10,121 nucleotides of DNA, from positions 1 to 10,121 of the forward strand of contig JADBKA010000169.1 of assembly GCA_014896635.1 (NCBI GenBank), in the 5' to 3' direction. Positions within the stretch are counted from its first letter, which is position 1; the number at the start of each line of letters is the position of its first letter. Below the pieces are notes generated by a model. The model made no database searches. It saw nothing but the letters and a program-made list of their open reading frames with translations, and was not told where the DNA came from. Source of the DNA: Ktedonobacteraceae bacterium. Lineage in GTDB: Bacteria > Chloroflexota > Ktedonobacteria > Ktedonobacterales > Ktedonobacteraceae. The translations under genes were made by a program, and so were the position numbers. Positions 1,003 through 10,082 of this stretch are shown piece by piece.

Positions 1003-2511
1003 TCAGCGCGCCACCTGCATAACTTCTTGCTGCGACGCCTGCACAGGCGCAGCGGCGAGCGGCAGGGAGAGCGTGAAGGTCGTCCCCTGACCGAGCTGGC
1101 TTTCTACCGCAATCGAGCCGCCGTGCGCCCGCACGATCCACTCCACAATGGAGAGGCCGAGACCGCTACTAGCGCGTTCTGTTGTGCCGCGCGCAGGATC
1201 GACGCGATAAAAGCGTTCAAAGATATGCGGCAGGTGTTCCGGCGCGATGCCGATACCCGTATCGGCAACGGTCAGCAGCGCCCGCTGTTCTTTCGTCTCG
1301 ACACGCAACGTCACATGCCCCCCGGCAGGAGTATAGTAGATGGCATTGTCCAGCAAGTTCATAATTGCCTGAATCAACCGTGCCTCATCTCCATACACCG
1401 TGACCGGTTGAGGCGTCTGCACATGCAGGGTCACACCTCGTTCCGCAGCCAGCAGTTCGGCATTGGCGGCCACTGCTTCAGCCAGCAGATCGAGGCGCAA
1501 GGGTGCGCGCTCAAACGGGGTCTGTCCCTCATCGCCGCGCGCCAGTGCCAGCAGGTCACTGATCAGGCGGCCCAGTCGCTCGGCTTCCACATTGACCTCG
1601 CGCAGCACTGCCTGATATTGAGCAGGCGCCATCTCTTCCAGCAAGGCCAGATCGGTCTTGCTGCGAATCACCGTTACTGGCGTGCGCAGTTCATGCGACG
1701 CATCGGCTACAAAGCGTCGTTGCCGCGTAAACAGGCGTTGTAGCTGCTCAAGCATTTCATTGAAGGTTACCGCCAGAAAATGGACCTCGTCGTGCGCGGG
1801 TGGCACAGGCACACGCTGTCGCAGGTCGCCTGACTGGATCGAGCGCGCGGTGCGCGTTAACTGGTGAATCGGCGCAAAGGCGCGCGAGGCCAGCCAGTAG
1901 CTGCCTATCGCGCTGAATAACAACACGATAATGCCCAGGGCCAGCAGCTCTTTGGCAATATGCTGCAACGTATCATGCAGCTCGTTGAGGGATTGACCCA
2001 CTTGCAGAATGGCAAAAGGACGTCCATGCTCTCCATAGAGCGCACTACTATACAGCCGTACCTCAGTCCCGTCCGGCGTCCTTACCGTGCCTTCCCAGGG
2101 ATGACCTCGCAGCGGCTGCGTGACACTGGCAGAGATAACAGGTAACACACGAAATGCCGGTGTCTCATGCAGCGGCTTCCCCTGCACATTGAGCAGGCGG
2201 ACATAGATATCGCTGTTCACACTGGAGCGCGGAACCGACCGGTCACTCACATCATTTGCAAAACCGGGAAACTCTTTTGCTCCATCATGTAGGAAGATAC
2301 GCCCATCGTCGTCGCTGATCTCCCCCGCGATCTGTTGCGCCCGCACCTGCAACGTCGCATCCAGCCCACCGGCCAGCGACCACTGAAGATATTTATAGAA
2401 GAGAAAGCTGGCAACCAGAAGGAGAACGGCGAAAACGCCCGTGTACCACAGCATTAATTGCAGGCGCACGCCGAGCGGGCGAGGAGTAAGAGCGCGCAAA
2501 GGATGGATCAT
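1003..2511 (-). CDS. membrane sensor histidine kinase (HAMP, HisKA, HATPase_c)
   Basis: A 502-residue sensor kinase, partner of the adjacent response regulator. A first membrane helix (about 15-39) and a second (about 188-210) bracket an extracytoplasmic sensor domain of about 150 residues that I do not recognise by family. A HAMP linker follows (about 210-262). The H-box is FVADASHELRTP with the phospho-acceptor at H273. The ATPase domain has the N-box N385-L-L-D-N389, the G1 box D417-T-G-I-G, the F-box FERFYRVD (431-438) and the G2 box G450-L-G-L. All residues needed for autophosphorylation are present. This is the EnvZ/PhoR-like layout. Its ATG overlaps the regulator's TGA as ATGA (2508-2511), so translation is probably coupled and the two form one operon. 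The signal sensed is unknown. Confidence 0.95.
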   Translation of the reverse strand: MIHPLRALTPRPLGVRLQLMLWYTGVFAVLLLVASFLFYKYLQWSLAGGLDATLQVRAQQIAGEISDDDGRIFLHDGAKEFPGFANDVSDRSVPRSSVNSDIYVRLLNVQGKPLHETPAFRVLPVISASVTQPLRGHPWEGTVRTPDGTEVRLYSSALYGEHGRPFAILQVGQSLNELHDTLQHIAKELLALGIIVLLFSAIGSYWLASRAFAPIHQLTRTARSIQSGDLRQRVPVPPAHDEVHFLAVTFNEMLEQLQRLFTRQRRFVADASHELRTPVTVIRSKTDLALLEEMAPAQYQAVLREVNVEAERLGRLISDLLALARGDEGQTPFERAPLRLDLLAEAVAANAELLAAERGVTLHVQTPQPVTVYGDEARLIQAIMNLLDNAIYYTPAGGHVTLRVETKEQRALLTVADTGIGIAPEHLPHIFERFYRVDPARGTTERASSGLGLSIVEWIVRAHGGSIAVESQLGQGTTFTLSLPLAAAPVQASQQEVMQVAR

Positions 2512-3185
2512 GAGAGAGGCTCCTTGAGTTGATAGCCGATACCGCGCACCGTGTGAATGACATCAGGCTCTCCATTCGCACACAACTTGGTGCGCAGATA
2601 GCGAATGTAGACATCAATCACATTAGAAAGTTGTTCCGCATCATAATCCCAGACGTGCTCGGCGATCATGGTGCGACTGAGCACCTGGCGGGGATGATGC
2701 ATGAAAAAATCGAGCAGCATATATTCTTTATGCGAAAGCTGGATGCTGCGCTCGCCGCGCCGTACTTCGTGCGAGCGTGTATCGAGCGTAATATCCATAA
2801 AACGCAGCACTGACGTCCTGGCAGATGTATCGCGCCTGAGCAAGGCTCTGACGCGCGCCTCCAGTTCACGAAAAGCAAACGGCTTGACCAGGTAATCATC
2901 GGCGCCAAGATCCAGTCCCTTCACGCGGTGATCAACGGTATCCAGAGCCGTCAGAAACAGGATAGGTACTGCCTGCTGCATCTCGCGCAACTGACGACAG
3001 ACTTCCCAGCCATCCAGGTCCGGCAGCAAGACATCAAGAATGATCAGATCATAGGGGACTTCAAAACATTGATCAAGGGCCGCCTCTCCGTTTGTCACCA
3101 GGTCCACAACATAGTGACTGCGCTCCAATCCCTTTTTCAGGTCAGGCCCCAACGAAGGATGGTCTTCAACCACTAAGATACGCAT
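2508..3185 (-). CDS. OmpR/PhoB-family response regulator
   Basis: A 225-residue two-domain regulator. The receiver domain (1-118) has the acidic pair E7-D8, phospho-acceptor D51, switch T79 and K101 in the LVKPF motif. The C-terminal winged helix (about 125-223) has the typical L-S-x-K-E-Y start (150-155), the recognition-helix region around NVIDVYIRYLRTKL (188-201), and the closing HTVRGIGYQL (211-220). The start is the ATG at 3185, with GGAGAG 9 nt upstream; the frame stays open for 33 more codons, but those would sit across the promoter and do not resemble a receiver domain. It is cotranscribed with the kinase through a 4-bp ATGA overlap. A tandem repeat in front of its own -10 box suggests autoregulation. 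Targets beyond this operon cannot be inferred. Confidence 0.96.
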   Translation of the reverse strand: MRILVVEDHPSLGPDLKKGLERSHYVVDLVTNGEAALDQCFEVPYDLIILDVLLPDLDGWEVCRQLREMQQAVPILFLTALDTVDHRVKGLDLGADDYLVKPFAFRELEARVRALLRRDTSARTSVLRFMDITLDTRSHEVRRGERSIQLSHKEYMLLDFFMHHPRQVLSRTMIAEHVWDYDAEQLSNVIDVYIRYLRTKLCANGEPDVIHTVRGIGYQLKEPLS

Positions 3186-3255
3186 GGCATACAACTCTCC
3201 ATCCCGGCACAGGATTTGCTTTTTTGCTACAACCAGTCCAGATATTTTTCGCCCT

Positions 3256-3287
3256 ATTATACACTCTGCACATGAGGAGAACATGAG
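3256..3287 (-). promoter_or_regulatory. promoter of the two-component operon with Pho-box-like tandem repeat
   Basis: On the minus strand, TATAAT (3261 to 3256) is a perfect -10 box, with transcription expected to begin near 3249 and leave about 64 nt of leader. There is no good TTGACA at -35. Instead two identical 7-mers CTCATGT, separated by TCTC (3287 to 3270), end 8 nt before the -10 box. PhoB-type regulators bind two 7-bp direct repeats at 11-bp period that replace the -35 element, so this is probably the site where the encoded regulator activates its own operon. Confidence 0.65.
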
Positions 3288-3613: not shown

Positions 3614-5068
3614 ATGCAGCATGAAGCTCGCCGTCGGATGAGCGTAGAACTGCTACACTCGCTTGCGAACAGAGCCAGCCGCTGGTATGAGCAACATGCG
3701 CTGTTCGACGACGCAATCGAGGCGGCTCTGACAGCAGGAGACACTGAGCGGGCCTCAAGGCTTATTATTCATCTTGTCGAAAATCAGAGCTTCTATCAGA
3801 TCACCGAATTCTACACATTGTCGCGCTGGCTGCAATGCTTATCGGAAGAGACGATTCAGAGATCACCCACCCTTTGCCAGGCATATGCGCTGGCACTGCT
3901 GTTCAGCACGGAGCAGCACACCCCGGCACTGCGAACACGGCTCGAACACTATTTGCGCATCGCCGAAGAACGTCTGCGAGCAACGAATAACCGGCAAAAA
4001 CTGGGAGAAGTTCTGGCCCTGCACGCCCTTGCCGCCGGGCAGTTGAATGATCAGGCGACGTCAATCAGTACCGCCCGACAGGCACTCGCTCTTCTGCCTG
4101 CCGATGAAAAAGACTGGCGCAGTAGCTGCTTACTTATCATAGGGATGCAAAACATGCTCTCCGGCAGGCTCAAAGAAGCACAGCAAGCCACTCGTACCGC
4201 ACTGACACTTATAGAGAGCAGCAGCAATAGCTACGTCATACGAGCAGCACATCTCACTCAGGGCATGATCAATCTCGGACAGGGGAAGCTGCACCAGGCA
4301 GCCGAGATCTTACGGCAGATTCTCGATACAGTGGGAGAAGATCGCTTTGACAGGGCGATTACATTAACAGGACTTGCTGCCCTTTCCTACGAGTGGAATC
4401 AACTGACGACGGCAGAAAAATCAGCACAGGAAGCATATGACATCAGTAGAGAGCTGGGAAACGAGCTGCTCCAGGTACTGGCAACAACAATTCTGGCCCG
4501 GACACTGTACGCGCAGGGAGAAACTGCACAGGCACAGGAACTCTTGCAGCGTCTCACTGTGCATCTCACTCAGCCGCAATGGCAACGTGAGATTGAGATC
4601 TGGCAGAGGTGGTTTGCCTCTGCCTCCGGCGATACCACTCCTCTACAACAACAGGCTTCCGCTCAACAGGCGGATCTGGCGGATACATCAGAAGAAATAC
4701 TGACAGAGGCACAACGGGAACGAGAAGCTCTGCTTCTCGCTCGCCTGCTGATCGCCCAGAGAAGAATACAGGAAGCTCTAACAATCCTCGCACACTGGCG
4801 CGGACAGGCCCGTGATCAATTACGCACCAGAAGCGAACTGGAAATACTGCTCCTTACAGCCAGGGCATACTTCATAGAACATCGCACACAGGAAGCTCAA
4901 CAGGTAATCGAAGAGGCTCTGGCACTCGCCCGGCCCGTCGGCTACCTGCGGCCTTTTCTGGACGAAGGAGAGCAGATGGCAGCCTTGCTCAAGGCCGCAT
5001 TGCCCACTGTACGAGAGAAACCTCTGGCCGCTTTTTTTGCGGAAACTACTCCTCGCATTTACACCTGA
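3614..5068 (+). CDS. MalT/LuxR-type regulator remnant, TPR region (no ATPase, frameshifted end)
   Basis: This 484-residue frame matches the middle of large MalT-like LuxR regulators. It opens with the conserved junction that follows the ATPase/winged-helix half (LHSLANRASRWYEQHALFDDAIEAALTAGD) and continues with alpha-helical TPR repeats (for example A-x-x-A-Y-x-x-A-L-A patterns). Full-length relatives carry 300 or more N-terminal residues with Walker motifs; none are found upstream. The frame ends with residues TTPRIYT just after a run of seven T (5032-5038). Reading with one T fewer continues smoothly into the LuxR HTH at 5037-5294. The gene is therefore probably a pseudogene, or else a truncated protein joined to its HTH by slippage. 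The ATG at 3614 has only a weak, distant AAGG; an ATG at 3638 is an alternative. No neighbour points to a regulon. Confidence 0.75.
   Translation: MQHEARRRMSVELLHSLANRASRWYEQHALFDDAIEAALTAGDTERASRLIIHLVENQSFYQITEFYTLSRWLQCLSEETIQRSPTLCQAYALALLFSTEQHTPALRTRLEHYLRIAEERLRATNNRQKLGEVLALHALAAGQLNDQATSISTARQALALLPADEKDWRSSCLLIIGMQNMLSGRLKEAQQATRTALTLIESSSNSYVIRAAHLTQGMINLGQGKLHQAAEILRQILDTVGEDRFDRAITLTGLAALSYEWNQLTTAEKSAQEAYDISRELGNELLQVLATTILARTLYAQGETAQAQELLQRLTVHLTQPQWQREIEIWQRWFASASGDTTPLQQQASAQQADLADTSEEILTEAQREREALLLARLLIAQRRIQEALTILAHWRGQARDQLRTRSELEILLLTARAYFIEHRTQEAQQVIEEALALARPVGYLRPFLDEGEQMAALLKAALPTVREKPLAAFFAETTPRIYT
5032..5038 (+). other. seven-T run at a frameshift splitting the LuxR regulator
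   Basis: Seven T in a row, between codons GCC GC and GCGG. As written, the TPR frame continues for 10 more codons after the run and stops at 5068. Removing one T gives A-A-F-L-R-K-L-L-L-A-F, a sequence typical of the linker before a LuxR HTH in this family. The lesion is one extra base at a homopolymer: a real mutation, a sequencing error, or a slippage site. Confidence 0.75.
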
Positions 5069-5294
5069 GCAGGGAAAATCCCTGGCTGCAACTCCACTGG
5101 CCGGACAGCTCAGTTCTCAGGAACGGCGCGTCTTGCGTCTGCTCGTGGCAGGACGCACAAACCCTGAGATTGCCCGCGAACTGATCGTTTCCATCAATAC
5201 GGTCAAAACGCAAGTTAAGAGTATCTATCGCAAACTGGACGTCTCCAGCCGCCGAGAGGCCAGCGAAGTCGCTCGCCATCTCCACCTTCTCTAG
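5037..5294 (+). CDS. LuxR (GerE) helix-turn-helix domain, separated by frameshift
   Basis: This 85-residue frame holds a complete LuxR-type DNA-binding domain: L-S-S-Q-E-R-R-V-L-R-L-L, then the loop A-G-R-T-N-P-E-I-A-R-E-L, the recognition helix S-I-N-T-V-K-T-Q-V-K-S-I-Y-R-K-L, and the closing helix ending at HLHLL. It is the C-terminal end of the regulator whose TPR part ends at 5068, and overlaps it by 32 bp in another frame. The only early start codon is a TTG (5037) inside the T-run, with no ribosome site, so independent translation is unlikely. It makes sense only as part of a longer protein read across the frameshift. The stop is TAG at 5292-5294. Confidence 0.75.
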   Translation: MRKLLLAFTPEQGKSLAATPLAGQLSSQERRVLRLLVAGRTNPEIARELIVSINTVKTQVKSIYRKLDVSSRREASEVARHLHLL

Positions 5295-6418: not shown

Positions 6419-6447
6419 TTGAAAAGTGTCAGTGTATTTCTTATACT
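6419..6447 (+). promoter_or_regulatory. sigma-70-type promoter of the regulator/graspetide operon
   Basis: TTGAAA (6419-6424) and TATACT (6442-6447) are separated by exactly 17 nt, each matching the consensus at five of six positions. Transcription should begin near 6454, leaving about 44 nt of leader with AGGAG before the ATG at 6498. This also argues against an earlier in-frame start at 6426, which would lie inside the promoter. Confidence 0.7.
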
Positions 6448-6497
6448 ACAATCAGGCGATTACAAACAGCGCATCCTGGCAAAAGGAGTCGGACAGC

Positions 6498-7760
6498 ATG
6501 GGACAGCTCTACTGGTGGTCACGGTATGGAAACTTTTCTCCTGGCATCGGCCTTTTACCACATACAGGCGAGGTAGTCGCCTTTTATCGTAAGAAACGGT
6601 ACAAGAATCAAGCGGATTTTGCGCTTGCGTCAGGCTGCAAGCTACGCACCGTACAAGAATGGGAAACTGCGATGTTTACGCATGATCACGAACGGCGCAT
6701 TTTTCTGGCAAAGATGCTCAAAATCCCTCCGGCCCTGCTCGGACTCGACTGGCGCCTGGTCGTCTATCAAGATCCGAGCGGGGCGCTGGCCGGGCCGCCG
6801 GAAGCGTTCCCCGACCATCTGGTGGCGCTCGTTGAGGAAGATAGCTATTATCACTATGAAGATACGCTCATCATGGCCTGGGGATGGTTCTATAGTGGCA
6901 AGTTGTTAGCCATCGCCGACCGCTTTGAGCGCCGCCTGCGCAAGCTAGAGCAGAAGATCCAGCAGGTCCCTGAACCTGATAGAGAGGGCTGGCAATGGCT
7001 GCTCTGCCAGTATCTGAATCTGTCAACACAGATTATCCAGCATCGTGAGACGGAACCAGGGCGGAAAAGAGAGGCGCTGCGGGTGAATGCCCAGGCGCTC
7101 AAGCTGGCAACCGAGCTGCAAGACAGTGAGATACTTGCCCTTTTGCTCCATGCACGGGCCAGTATTCACGATGAACAGGGACATCCTGTTCAGGCCAGAG
7201 TGGCAGCCCAGGCAGCTCTCGACTATACCGACAGGTTGGGGGTTCCTTTGAGTGGCAATATCTACCTGCTGTCAGCAAATATTCTTGTCCCTTTTGCGGC
7301 CAACGACGAGACGTTAGAGAAACAGGCGAGAGGTTGGCAGGAGAAAGCCCTCAACATGGTCTATAAAGGGAAGATCGAACCAGATAACTCCTTCTTGAAG
7401 CTCAACCTGGCAGGAGCGCACCACGAACGTGCAAAGCTGTTCCTGCAACTGCATCGCATGCATCCCTATCGAGGATGGCTCAAAGAGGCGCGCCATGCCC
7501 TCATCCTGGCATGGGATGCCTTTACGCCTGAGATCAGCGAGTGGGAACTTTATTTTCACCTGACAGAGGCACAAATTTTCAAAGAGGAACATGATATCCA
7601 GGGGAGTGCTGAGAAGGGACTGCAAGCATTACAGGCGGCGAGAGCGATGCAATCGAAGAAGCGGGAAGGCCAGATCCAGGCACTCTATCACGAGTTGATT
7701 CACCAGGATGCCGGCAATCCTTATGTGCATCACCTGGGAGGTGAGCTAGGGATTTTCTAG
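6498..7760 (+). CDS. XRE-type HTH transcriptional regulator with TPR-like C-terminal region
   Basis: A 420-residue protein. Residues about 24-84 form a helix-turn-helix of the XRE/Cro type: the scaffold QADFALASGCKLRTVQEWE (38-56) is a turn plus recognition helix, and FLAKMLKIPPALLGL (69-83) is the usual closing helix. The remaining 330 residues are helical with TPR-like patterns (for example A-L-K-L-A-T-E-L, A-R-V-A-A-Q-A-A-L-D-Y), like the ligand- or peptide-binding half of RRNPP-type regulators. The start is the ATG at 6498, with AGGAG 9 nt upstream, downstream of a clear promoter. Only 41 bp separate its stop from the RiPP precursor gene on the same strand, so it is probably first in that operon and its likely controller. 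The ligand, and whether it activates or represses, are unknown. Confidence 0.85.
   Translation: MGQLYWWSRYGNFSPGIGLLPHTGEVVAFYRKKRYKNQADFALASGCKLRTVQEWETAMFTHDHERRIFLAKMLKIPPALLGLDWRLVVYQDPSGALAGPPEAFPDHLVALVEEDSYYHYEDTLIMAWGWFYSGKLLAIADRFERRLRKLEQKIQQVPEPDREGWQWLLCQYLNLSTQIIQHRETEPGRKREALRVNAQALKLATELQDSEILALLLHARASIHDEQGHPVQARVAAQAALDYTDRLGVPLSGNIYLLSANILVPFAANDETLEKQARGWQEKALNMVYKGKIEPDNSFLKLNLAGAHHERAKLFLQLHRMHPYRGWLKEARHALILAWDAFTPEISEWELYFHLTEAQIFKEEHDIQGSAEKGLQALQAARAMQSKKREGQIQALYHELIHQDAGNPYVHHLGGELGIF
6646..6665 (+). repeat. 20-nt direct repeat, copy inside the regulator HTH codons
   Basis: Exact second copy of the 20-mer at 6159-6178. Here it codes the T-V-Q-E-W-E segment (residues 51-56) of the recognition helix. 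The flanks on both sides differ from the upstream copy. Confidence 0.8.
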
Positions 7761-7801: not shown

Positions 7802-8008
7802 ATGATCGATCCTGTCTTTTCCTATCATTCTGTTGAATTGGAGCAGATCCAGTATCGCCCAACTTCACCGTTTGGCATGCTATTCTTGCGTGTTCCCATA
7901 GTTCATGTACCTGTCTCTGCTCATTATGAGGAAGCCAGTACCCGCACCTGTGATGAAACGACCTATGATGGCAGGAGTAAATTAGACTGTATTGACGACG
8001 ATGACTAA
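7802..8008 (+). CDS. candidate ATP-grasp-modified RiPP precursor (graspetide type)
   Basis: A 68-residue peptide encoded just before an ATP-grasp/PIMT-like enzyme. The N-terminal half looks like a leader: P23-F-G-M-L-F28-L29 resembles the microviridin leader motif PFFARFL (P, F, F and L shared) and the PFG motif of other ATP-grasp targets. The C-terminal part (about 39-68) looks like a core. It has possible hydroxyl donors S46, T47, T49, T53, T54 and S59, acidic acceptors D51, E52, D56, D62 and D65-D68, one Lys (K60) that could form an amide, and an Asp-Gly pair (D56-G57), the classic aspartimide-prone dipeptide. Two Cys (C50, C63) are unusual for the class. The start has a strong AAAGGAGG 5 nt upstream, and the stop overlaps the maturase start by 8 bp. 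The role is inferred from context and composition; the ring pattern cannot be predicted from the sequence. Confidence 0.82.
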   Translation: MIDPVFSYHSVELEQIQYRPTSPFGMLFLRVPIVHVPVSAHYEEASTRTCDETTYDGRSKLDCIDDDD

Positions 8009-10082
8009 GAAAACGCTGATTTTATCAAACCTCACCGACGACAGCCATGTTCCCCGGCTGGTGGCCGAGTTTGACCGACTCGGCCATCCCTGGGTCATCT
8101 TTGATCCGGGGGACTTCCCTCAAAAGGTTCAGGTTTCTGCCTCTATCAGTAACGAGAGCAAGTGCAGTTTTCTGGCGTTTACCGACTGCACCAGGATTCG
8201 CCTGGAGGAGATCACCAGCATCTGGTATCGCCGTCCTACTCGTATTCTTCCTCGTGATGATCTGCCGGGCATAGAACAAACCTTTATTCAGCGTGAAGCT
8301 CATGCAGGAATCTGGGGATGGCTACGTGGGTTACAGGCACTCTGGGTCAATCATCCTGATGCTGTACGGGCTGCTGGACACAAGCCGGAACAACTACAAC
8401 GCGCCACCATGCTCGGACTGGCTATCCCGCGCAGTGTCGTGACCAACGAGCCGGACGTGTTCAAACGATTTTATGAAGAATGCGGCGGTAGCGTTGTCTA
8501 CAAGTTGATGGGCTATCCCTGGTACAGCGACAAAAATGAGACGCCTATTTCAACCTTTACTTCTCTGGTTTCTCGTGAGATGCTCGCAGAAGCTCAGCGC
8601 GTTACAGCAACTATGCACCTCTTTCAGGAGTTCATCGTCAAACAATGTGATATTCGTGTCATCATTCTTGGAGAGAAAGCCTTTGCCACAGCAATCTATC
8701 CCCTATCTGAGGCCACACAGATTGATTTCCGGGCGGATTATCAACAACTGCGCTATACACCTCACCAGTTACCTGACCACATTTGTCAGTCGCTACTTAC
8801 GCTCACTCGCTCGTATCATCTGTCCTATGCGGCTATCGATCTGCTCCTTACGCCAGAGGACCGCTATGTCTTCCTGGAGCTCAATCCTCTTGGTCAATTT
8901 GGCTGGCTGGAAGGTCGTACTGGGATTCCTCTTTACCATACCGTTGGCAACACTTTTGATAGAAGGAACACACCTATGATCAACGTGCAAGCGACAGAAT
9001 CGCTGGTTCAGAACATTGAGAAGCAACTCGGACGCGCGCTGACACCATCGGTTCGCAAGGTATTTCTTCAGGTGCCGCGACATCTGTTTGTGCAGCAGTA
9101 TTACCAGCAGCGCGGCAATAGCCTGGACTGGGAGCTAGTTCAGGCGACAGAAGAGCAAATCTATCGGGACGAGGCCCTGGTGACACAGATTGACCGGCGG
9201 GGAATGCCGAGTAGCTCTACCTCACAGCCATCTGTCATGGCTGTGCAGTTAGAGGCGCTTGAGCTGGAGCACGGTCAACGGGTACTGGAGATTGGCGCCG
9301 GCACAGGCTACAATGCCGCTCTTCTGGGAAAGCTGGTCGGCGATCATGGGAATGAGGCAGGGCAAGTCATCAGTCTGGAGATCGATACAACGCTGGCAGA
9401 ACAGGCCAGAGAGCACCTTGCCCGTGCAGCTATCCACAATGTGGTGGTCCTGCCAGGCAATGGCTTTTCTGGCGAGATGGCATATGCTCTTTATGATCGG
9501 ATCTTGTCCACCTGTAGTATCCGTACTGTCCCTCATGCCTGGTTTGAACAGCTCAAGACCGGAGGGAGACTGGTGGGCAACTGGCTCACACCTCTGGCTA
9601 GCCTGTTTCTCTCTGTGGAGAAAGTCAGTACCGGCGAACTGGTCGGTCGTTTGCTCAATCTGAGCGCAACGTATATGGAAATGCAGATGCCGGGCGTGTC
9701 ACCATCAAAGGACAAAATCGACTGGACACACTATGACAGGTTGCCGTTGACCAGCCTGCCACTCTCCGATATGAAAACACGACTCCAGAATCCCGCGTAC
9801 AGTTTGCTCTTACACTGTTTGCTTCCAGAGATGAAGAAGCGTTATCGCAGCAAAGGCGACCAGGTGTATCTCGCTCTCCTGGCGCGGGGAAACGCCATCC
9901 TGGTCCAGGATGACGGGCTTCTCATCTCTGGAGATGAAGGGATAGGACAGATCATTCAACAGAGTGTTGACCTGTATGATCAGTCTGGGCAACCGGGAAT
10001 CACTGACTATCGCGTGACCTTGCAAGAGCGGCAGGTTGCGATTTATGTTGGTGATCGCTGTTTCCATCTCCCCATTTCTTGA
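8001..10082 (+). CDS. fused ATP-grasp peptide ligase and PIMT-like O-methyltransferase (graspetide maturase)
   Basis: A 693-residue two-domain enzyme. Residues 1-320 are a MvdC/MvdD-like ATP-grasp ligase: W75-Y-R-R-P79; N117-H-P-D-A-V-R-A-A-G-H-K128 followed by LGLAIPRSVVTNEP; K168 in VYKLMG; Q209-E210 and D217-I-R219 for substrate/ATP; D280, E293 and N295 (FLELNPLGQFGW) for Mg-ATP. It should phosphorylate core Asp/Glu side chains and form esters or amides. From M326 begins a PIMT-like methyltransferase: YRDEALVTQID, S-T-S408-Q-P, SAM motif V428-L-E-I-G-A-G-T-G436, and G486-N-G-F. A further C-terminal region (about 540-693) matches the extra domain known in RiPP-linked PIMT homologues. The likely product is an aspartimide in the core. 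The ATG at 8001 overlaps the precursor stop (coupling); a TTG at 7992 with AGGAG 14 nt upstream is the alternative. The fusion is the odd feature, since known clusters use two genes. Confidence 0.9.
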   Translation: MTKKTLILSNLTDDSHVPRLVAEFDRLGHPWVIFDPGDFPQKVQVSASISNESKCSFLAFTDCTRIRLEEITSIWYRRPTRILPRDDLPGIEQTFIQREAHAGIWGWLRGLQALWVNHPDAVRAAGHKPEQLQRATMLGLAIPRSVVTNEPDVFKRFYEECGGSVVYKLMGYPWYSDKNETPISTFTSLVSREMLAEAQRVTATMHLFQEFIVKQCDIRVIILGEKAFATAIYPLSEATQIDFRADYQQLRYTPHQLPDHICQSLLTLTRSYHLSYAAIDLLLTPEDRYVFLELNPLGQFGWLEGRTGIPLYHTVGNTFDRRNTPMINVQATESLVQNIEKQLGRALTPSVRKVFLQVPRHLFVQQYYQQRGNSLDWELVQATEEQIYRDEALVTQIDRRGMPSSSTSQPSVMAVQLEALELEHGQRVLEIGAGTGYNAALLGKLVGDHGNEAGQVISLEIDTTLAEQAREHLARAAIHNVVVLPGNGFSGEMAYALYDRILSTCSIRTVPHAWFEQLKTGGRLVGNWLTPLASLFLSVEKVSTGELVGRLLNLSATYMEMQMPGVSPSKDKIDWTHYDRLPLTSLPLSDMKTRLQNPAYSLLLHCLLPEMKKRYRSKGDQVYLALLARGNAILVQDDGLLISGDEGIGQIIQQSVDLYDQSGQPGITDYRVTLQERQVAIYVGDRCFHLPIS
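8961..8978 (+). promoter_or_regulatory. internal Shine-Dalgarno and ATG at the domain boundary of the fused enzyme
   Basis: AGAAGGA (8961-8967) lies 8 nt before an in-frame ATG (8976-8978, residue M326), exactly where the methyltransferase half begins. Starting there would give a 368-residue stand-alone methyltransferase, about the size of unfused relatives. This may be a relic of two genes merged by loss of a stop codon, or a working internal start. Confidence 0.5.

Follow-up and report, generated by a model that had tools for sequence, protein, structure and literature searches.

A graspimiditide-type locus from a Ktedonobacteraceae bacterium in which the ligase and methyltransferase genes are read as one frame

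The DNA analysed here (10,121 nucleotides in full, hereafter the window) very probably carries an ordinary three-gene graspimiditide locus, in which an extra base merges the frames of the ligase and the methyltransferase into one open reading frame (ORF) of 693 codons. The three closely packed genes would encode a precursor peptide, an ATP-grasp ligase, and a PIMT-like methyltransferase of a Ktedonobacteraceae-like bacterium. Judged by family, the ligase would form side-chain esters that join Thr residues before an invariant Asp-Gly loop to Asp residues behind it, and the methyltransferase would then methylate the loop Asp, which would close to an aspartimide. The extra base, some 12 codons short of the ligase stop, would shift the end of the ligase into the methyltransferase frame. 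The preliminary description of this DNA had proposed that one fused ATP-grasp/PIMT maturase is encoded here and may represent a new class of enzyme. That proposal is not supported: the frame changes shortly upstream of an overlap of the two genes at ATGA, and no fusion occurs among 94 ligase ORFs from other loci. What looks like a fused enzyme reflects either an artefact in the frame or a recent chance mutation.

Precursor peptide and neighbouring genes

As previously described, the window contains a 68-codon ORF (7802–8008, + strand) that has 8 bp in common with the 693-codon ORF (8001–10082), which begins with ATG. The short ORF is preceded by AGGAGG just 5' of its ATG and was assigned, with its homologues, as the gene of a 68-residue graspetide precursor. 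The putative border between leader and core places PFGMLFLR in the leader and gives ASTRTCDETTYDGRSKLDCIDDDD as the core. Searching the peptide against NCBIfam and Pfam at E 0.1 gave no match. Twelve homologues were found besides the peptide itself, with identities of 63–76%, and alignment of the 13 precursors revealed invariant T47, T49, T53, D56-G57, S59, L61, D62, and D65–D68. A chance ORF was rejected on the basis of these homologues and invariant residues. Absence of the short ORF from related loci had been named beforehand as the observation that would speak against a precursor; homologues were found, also upstream of ligases, which favours the precursor assignment. In three loci they sit immediately 5' of the ATP-grasp gene, namely L001 and L081, both from Ktedonobacter sp. 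SOSP1-85, and L087, and T47, T53, D56, G57, D62, D66, and D68 were seen by eye to recur in the precursors of all three. Four of the 12 homologues are recorded on contigs equal in length (17886, 13605, 4484, and 30162) to that of a ligase relative, which suggests, and does not prove, that these four also adjoin a ligase gene.

Directly 5' of the precursor lies a gene resembling NsdA-like/TPR regulators (6426–7760, + strand), for which the NCBIfam match is weak and below the cut-off. This gene is a possible regulator of the locus. Among the compared loci, many of which have short flanks, an NsdA-like match was present only in L098, and the gene was not counted among the conserved genes of the locus. 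Further away, on the complementary strand (1003–3284), open frames encode a response regulator and a histidine kinase, nearest to the heavy-metal CopRS/CzcRS type at scores below the cut-offs.

Domains and motifs of the 693-codon frame

Both motif sets were located in the 693-residue translation exactly where the preliminary description had put them: WYRRP (75–79), K168, D280, E293, and N295 of the ATP-grasp ligase, and SQP (408–410) and VLEIGAGTG (428–436) of the PIMT-like methyltransferase. R77, R78, P79, K168, D280, E293, and N295 are invariant in 44 aligned relatives. The best families identified by hmmscan were GRASP_SAV_5884 (TIGR04187) for the ligase half (residues 14–316, E 3e-78) and methyltr_grsp (TIGR04188) for the methyltransferase half (residues 343–678, E 4e-57). 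Their scores fall below the curated NCBIfam cut-offs (263 of 350 bits and 194 of 380 bits, respectively), but these cut-offs are naming thresholds that do not define a class, and the filing of the locus with the graspimiditides therefore rests on other criteria. The Pfam models PF21068 and PF01135 both exceed their cut-offs in this frame (E 3e-33 for PF01135). The closest solved structures are MdnC (PDB 5ig9, E 3e-40) for the ligase half and a PIMT (1dl5).

The end of the ligase lies in a neighbouring frame

The ATP-grasp graspetide ligase was assigned to 8001–8979 (+ strand) from TIGR04187, the similarity to MdnC (5ig9), its separate relatives, and a test of C-terminal tails. The long frame reads GRTGIPLYHT and continues with VGNTFDRRNTP-MINVQ. 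After PLYHT, the neighbouring frame reads LATLLIEGTHL, 11 residues that run to a TGA stop at 8977–8979. A search with the ligase half returned 175 relatives, and among the best 120 of these, 105 are 300–360 amino acids long, the separate ligases being typically of about 325 residues; candidates were admitted up to 1.75 times the length of the query, and the search is hence blind to fusions. The relatives have C-termini such as PLYHTLATLLIEGVRP, with variation; most of those printed are alike, and some differ or are cut. The closest ligase relative among the matches listed, 79% identical, is a separate protein that ends in GHTGIPLYHTLATLLIEGVRP.

For the tail test, 100 of the 120 relatives could be cut at a common motif, and 99 had eight residues left for comparison. 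LATLLIEG outscored VGNTFDRR in 96 of the 99. When all 15,684 stop-free 8-mers from the six frames of the window were ranked against a profile of the relatives' tails, LATLLIEG came first and VGNTFDRR came 1766th. Because the tail in the other frame fits the C-termini of the relatives, the ligase end is intact and displaced by one base at about 8938–8944 (ATACCGT, + strand), a site placed by three-frame reading and the tail test and lying outside any long homopolymer. The single ORF thus owes its length to a shift of +1 in frame, some 12 codons ahead of the ligase stop, and not to a fusion of domains. Loss of the stop codon with no change of frame was rejected, as the ligase tail occupies a different frame. 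The displaced part corresponds to the end of the terminal helix (311–321) of the relative P0123, and in a model of the fused chain this helix covers only 311–318.

Methyltransferase start and gene junction

The PIMT-like O-methyltransferase of the graspetide kind (8976–10082, + strand; TIGR04188 and PF01135) has its own ATG at 8976, with a Shine-Dalgarno-like AGAAGGA (8961–8967, + strand) 8 nt 5' of it, and the displaced TGA of the ligase overlaps this start codon to give ATGA. Of the two nearest separate methyltransferases, P0003 begins with MIELHEMEQLV, which aligns with MINVQATESLV of the window, and P0004 has three extra residues ahead of that point. An NTGA overlap in the methyltransferase frame was the commonest junction among related ligase/methyltransferase pairs (37 of 56), and 28 of these 37 have a Shine-Dalgarno-like 4-mer within the 14 nt upstream. 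Other junctions, including a few that are broken or distant, account for the remaining 19 pairs. The window thus combines the junction most often met in this family with a single frame change upstream of it.

Survey of proteins carrying both domains

A conserved fused architecture, for which the preliminary description had suggested a database check, was not borne out by surveys of loci, genomes, and proteins. The window was left out of the 163 fetched loci, and 12 of these (L123–L134), taken for a MalT-like gene discussed below, are without a ligase. Ligase ORFs were present in 91 of the 163 loci, with 94 matches to the ligase profile (87 distinct), and 91 of the 94 extend to position 300 of the 322-position profile. 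The methyltransferase profile matched 154 ORFs in the fetched loci, and none of the 94 ligase ORFs matched both profiles.

When 47 Ktedonobacteria genomes were searched with the 693-residue protein, matches were obtained in 39, and the only one spanning both halves among the rows listed, in G044, is interrupted by TAG. A second query, the two-domain protein P0008, was run on 296 genomes belonging to the same class as G048, where 92 genomes had a match at 1e-20 and up to three candidates were scored per genome, and on four further genomes; among the matches listed from either set, none spanned both halves. Contig 14 of G050 (L118), where both halves occur with an open-frame length of 723, was considered as an uninterrupted fusion and rejected; its DNA has the ligase broken into two frames and a stop before the methyltransferase ORF. 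In the genome G050, recorded as a Pseudonocardiaceae MAG of about 4 Mb and also the source of L008, 47 matches were obtained with the two halves of P0008, ligase or methyltransferase. This graspimiditide-like set is unusually large and partly broken, several of the matches being fragmented or carrying stops.

A search of about 5.8 billion proteins, in which 7,994 candidates were scored, placed PF21068 and PF01135 in one protein for three of the 120 matches listed out of 809: the 693-residue protein itself, P0008, and P0011. Judged by its protein sequence, the ligase half of P0011 looks unrelated from about residue 218 onward, and the ELNP region is absent. This protein was not accepted as independent support for a fusion, since its ligase half looks frameshifted. 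P0008 (727 residues) has both domains and, from its protein sequence, a normal-looking junction; in its nearest genome relative among the matches listed, G328 (68% and 57%), the two genes are separate with a GTGA overlap. P0064 (705 residues) is listed with Pfam domains of the ParA/Mrp ATPase and PIMT kinds, which may reflect a real fusion or a frame artefact, and it is not an ATP-grasp fusion. No fused ATP-grasp/methyltransferase was found in the accessible portions of the graspetide literature, including PMC8939145, PMC13097080, PMC13001092, PMC10787088, and PMC13003496.

Origin of the single frame

The extra base may be either an error of the consensus or a recent mutation in the organism. 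These are the two branches of the preferred reading, a three-gene locus with one extra base, so that the likelihoods given to the whole and to a branch overlap. The chance that the base is real and recent, such that a fusion has arisen by bypass of the ligase stop and may be active alongside free methyltransferase made from ATG 8976, is put at a little under even. In favour of a real base, the frame change does not lie in a long homopolymer, and the identical 693-residue protein is recorded on a contig of 4504 bases, with the precursor recorded on one of 10121 bases, the size of the window. The differing contig sizes hint at a second contig with the same frame and do not prove it; such a contig would speak for a real mutation, but it could also stem from one set of reads that was assembled twice. 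Against a recent real mutation, no decay is visible in the ligase tail encoded in the other frame.

The neighbourhood bears on both branches. A MalT-like regulator gene (3614–5294, + strand) contains a second +1 break of the window, at a run of seven T (5032–5038) that is the longest homopolymer of the window, as sequencing error predicts. The TPR region falls in one frame and the LuxR helix-turn-helix region (GerE domain) in another, and between 3001 and 5600 of the window no counterpart was found for residues 1 to about 489 of the relatives of this regulator. This break fits either sequencing error or a decaying region, the latter favouring a real base. It was not accepted as proof of sequencing error, because the N-terminal half is unmatched and the gene may be a true pseudogene. 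Should the extra base be genomic, the strain might make both a newborn bifunctional ligase-methyltransferase, by stop bypass, and a free methyltransferase from the retained start, a combination that we consider unlikely. If true, it would be a natural snapshot of an ATGA gene overlap becoming an enzyme fusion, with P0008 as a second independent case.

A bifunctional maturase that evolved as one selected chain and enforces ester formation before methylation is very improbable and was rejected on the frame evidence. The uninterrupted frame carries both motif sets, and AlphaFold2 folded both halves of the 693-residue chain well (mean pLDDT 87.5, pTM 0.61), with low-confidence stretches at 323–326, the linker, and at 362–407. 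P0008 and P0011 also carry both domains, and a fusion as such is not implausible, since PIMTs of lanthipeptide loci are known to be joined to glutamyl lyase domains according to the available text of a review (PMC13001092). Against such a maturase stand the intact family C-terminus in the other frame, the start and Shine-Dalgarno-like site retained by the methyltransferase, the lack of a fusion among the 94 ligase ORFs and of an uninterrupted two-domain match among the rows listed from 47, 296, and four genomes, the frameshifted look of the ligase half of P0011, and the two-gene arrangement in G328. A fusion is also unneeded for the order of the reactions, because separate enzymes already form the ester before methylation. 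Programmed +1 frameshifting at 8938–8944, yielding a standalone ligase and a fused form, would be allowed by the two frames open across this site but is scarcely credible, as the compared relatives keep one frame to the ligase stop and inspection by eye revealed no known slippery motif.

The points that count against an ordinary three-gene locus with an extra base are the possible second contig, the normal-looking junction of P0008, and the TIGR04187 and TIGR04188 scores below their cut-offs.

Class and predicted product

The locus combines an ATP-grasp ligase that has the catalytic residues, an adjacent PIMT-like methyltransferase, and a precursor with conserved Thr, Asp-Gly, and Asp residues, and it is a further member of the graspimiditide (PIMT-associated graspetide) loci, of the kind found in Ktedonobacteraceae. 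The part of the preliminary description that called this a graspetide locus with a PIMT-type methyltransferase is therefore upheld by the family matches and the precursor alignment, and the cross-linked aspartimide product that it predicted remains probable by analogy; the new fused class is not supported. By the same analogy with characterised members, the Thr-Asp esters would link T47, T49, and T53 with the group of D62 and D65–D68, and the aspartimide is predicted at D56.

This outcome removes the false lead of a fused maturase class. What is useful in the remainder is a well-conserved Ktedonobacteraceae precursor family outside Actinomycetota that has no NCBIfam or Pfam match. RiPP maturases that appear fused on a single contig call for a look at the neighbouring frame, where a displaced C-terminus may lie, because four-base overlaps between ligase and methyltransferase genes are frequent (37 of 56 pairs) and a single indel can join such genes.

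Comparison with known systems

In the available text of the review (PMC13001092), graspimiditides are the group 13 graspetides, which include fuscimiditide (ThfA/B/M), amycolimiditide, albusimiditide, and SsfA(BM); 99% of 1326 loci are in Actinomycetota, and a few are from Chloroflexi. They share with the window a precursor, an ATP-grasp ligase, and a PIMT-like methyltransferase, and their products have a Thr-Asp ester stem and a loop Asp followed by Gly (PMC13001092). The window differs in that the locus is of the Chloroflexota kind, the precursor has no family model, the enzyme genes are read as one frame, and the product is a predicted one.

The two loci of Ktedonobacter sp. SOSP1-85 (L001 and L081) have a homologous precursor, a ligase 53–54% identical, and a methyltransferase 44–45% identical, in the same order, but their ligase and methyltransferase are encoded by separate overlapping genes. 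The G044 locus (L087) likewise has a homologous precursor and the same order, and it matches residues 5–690 of the 693-residue protein at 51%; unlike in the window, a TAG stop followed by CAG ATG separates two genes in the same frame, and the ligase end resembles that of P0162 from Thermosporothrix hazakensis. The microviridin and other graspetide ligases MdnC, MdnB, CdnC, AMdnB, PruB, and PsnB (PDB 5ig9, 5ig8, 7mgv, 7m4s, 9bou, and 7drm) agree with the ligase half in fold and sequence family, whereas their chains of 333–360 residues match that half only.
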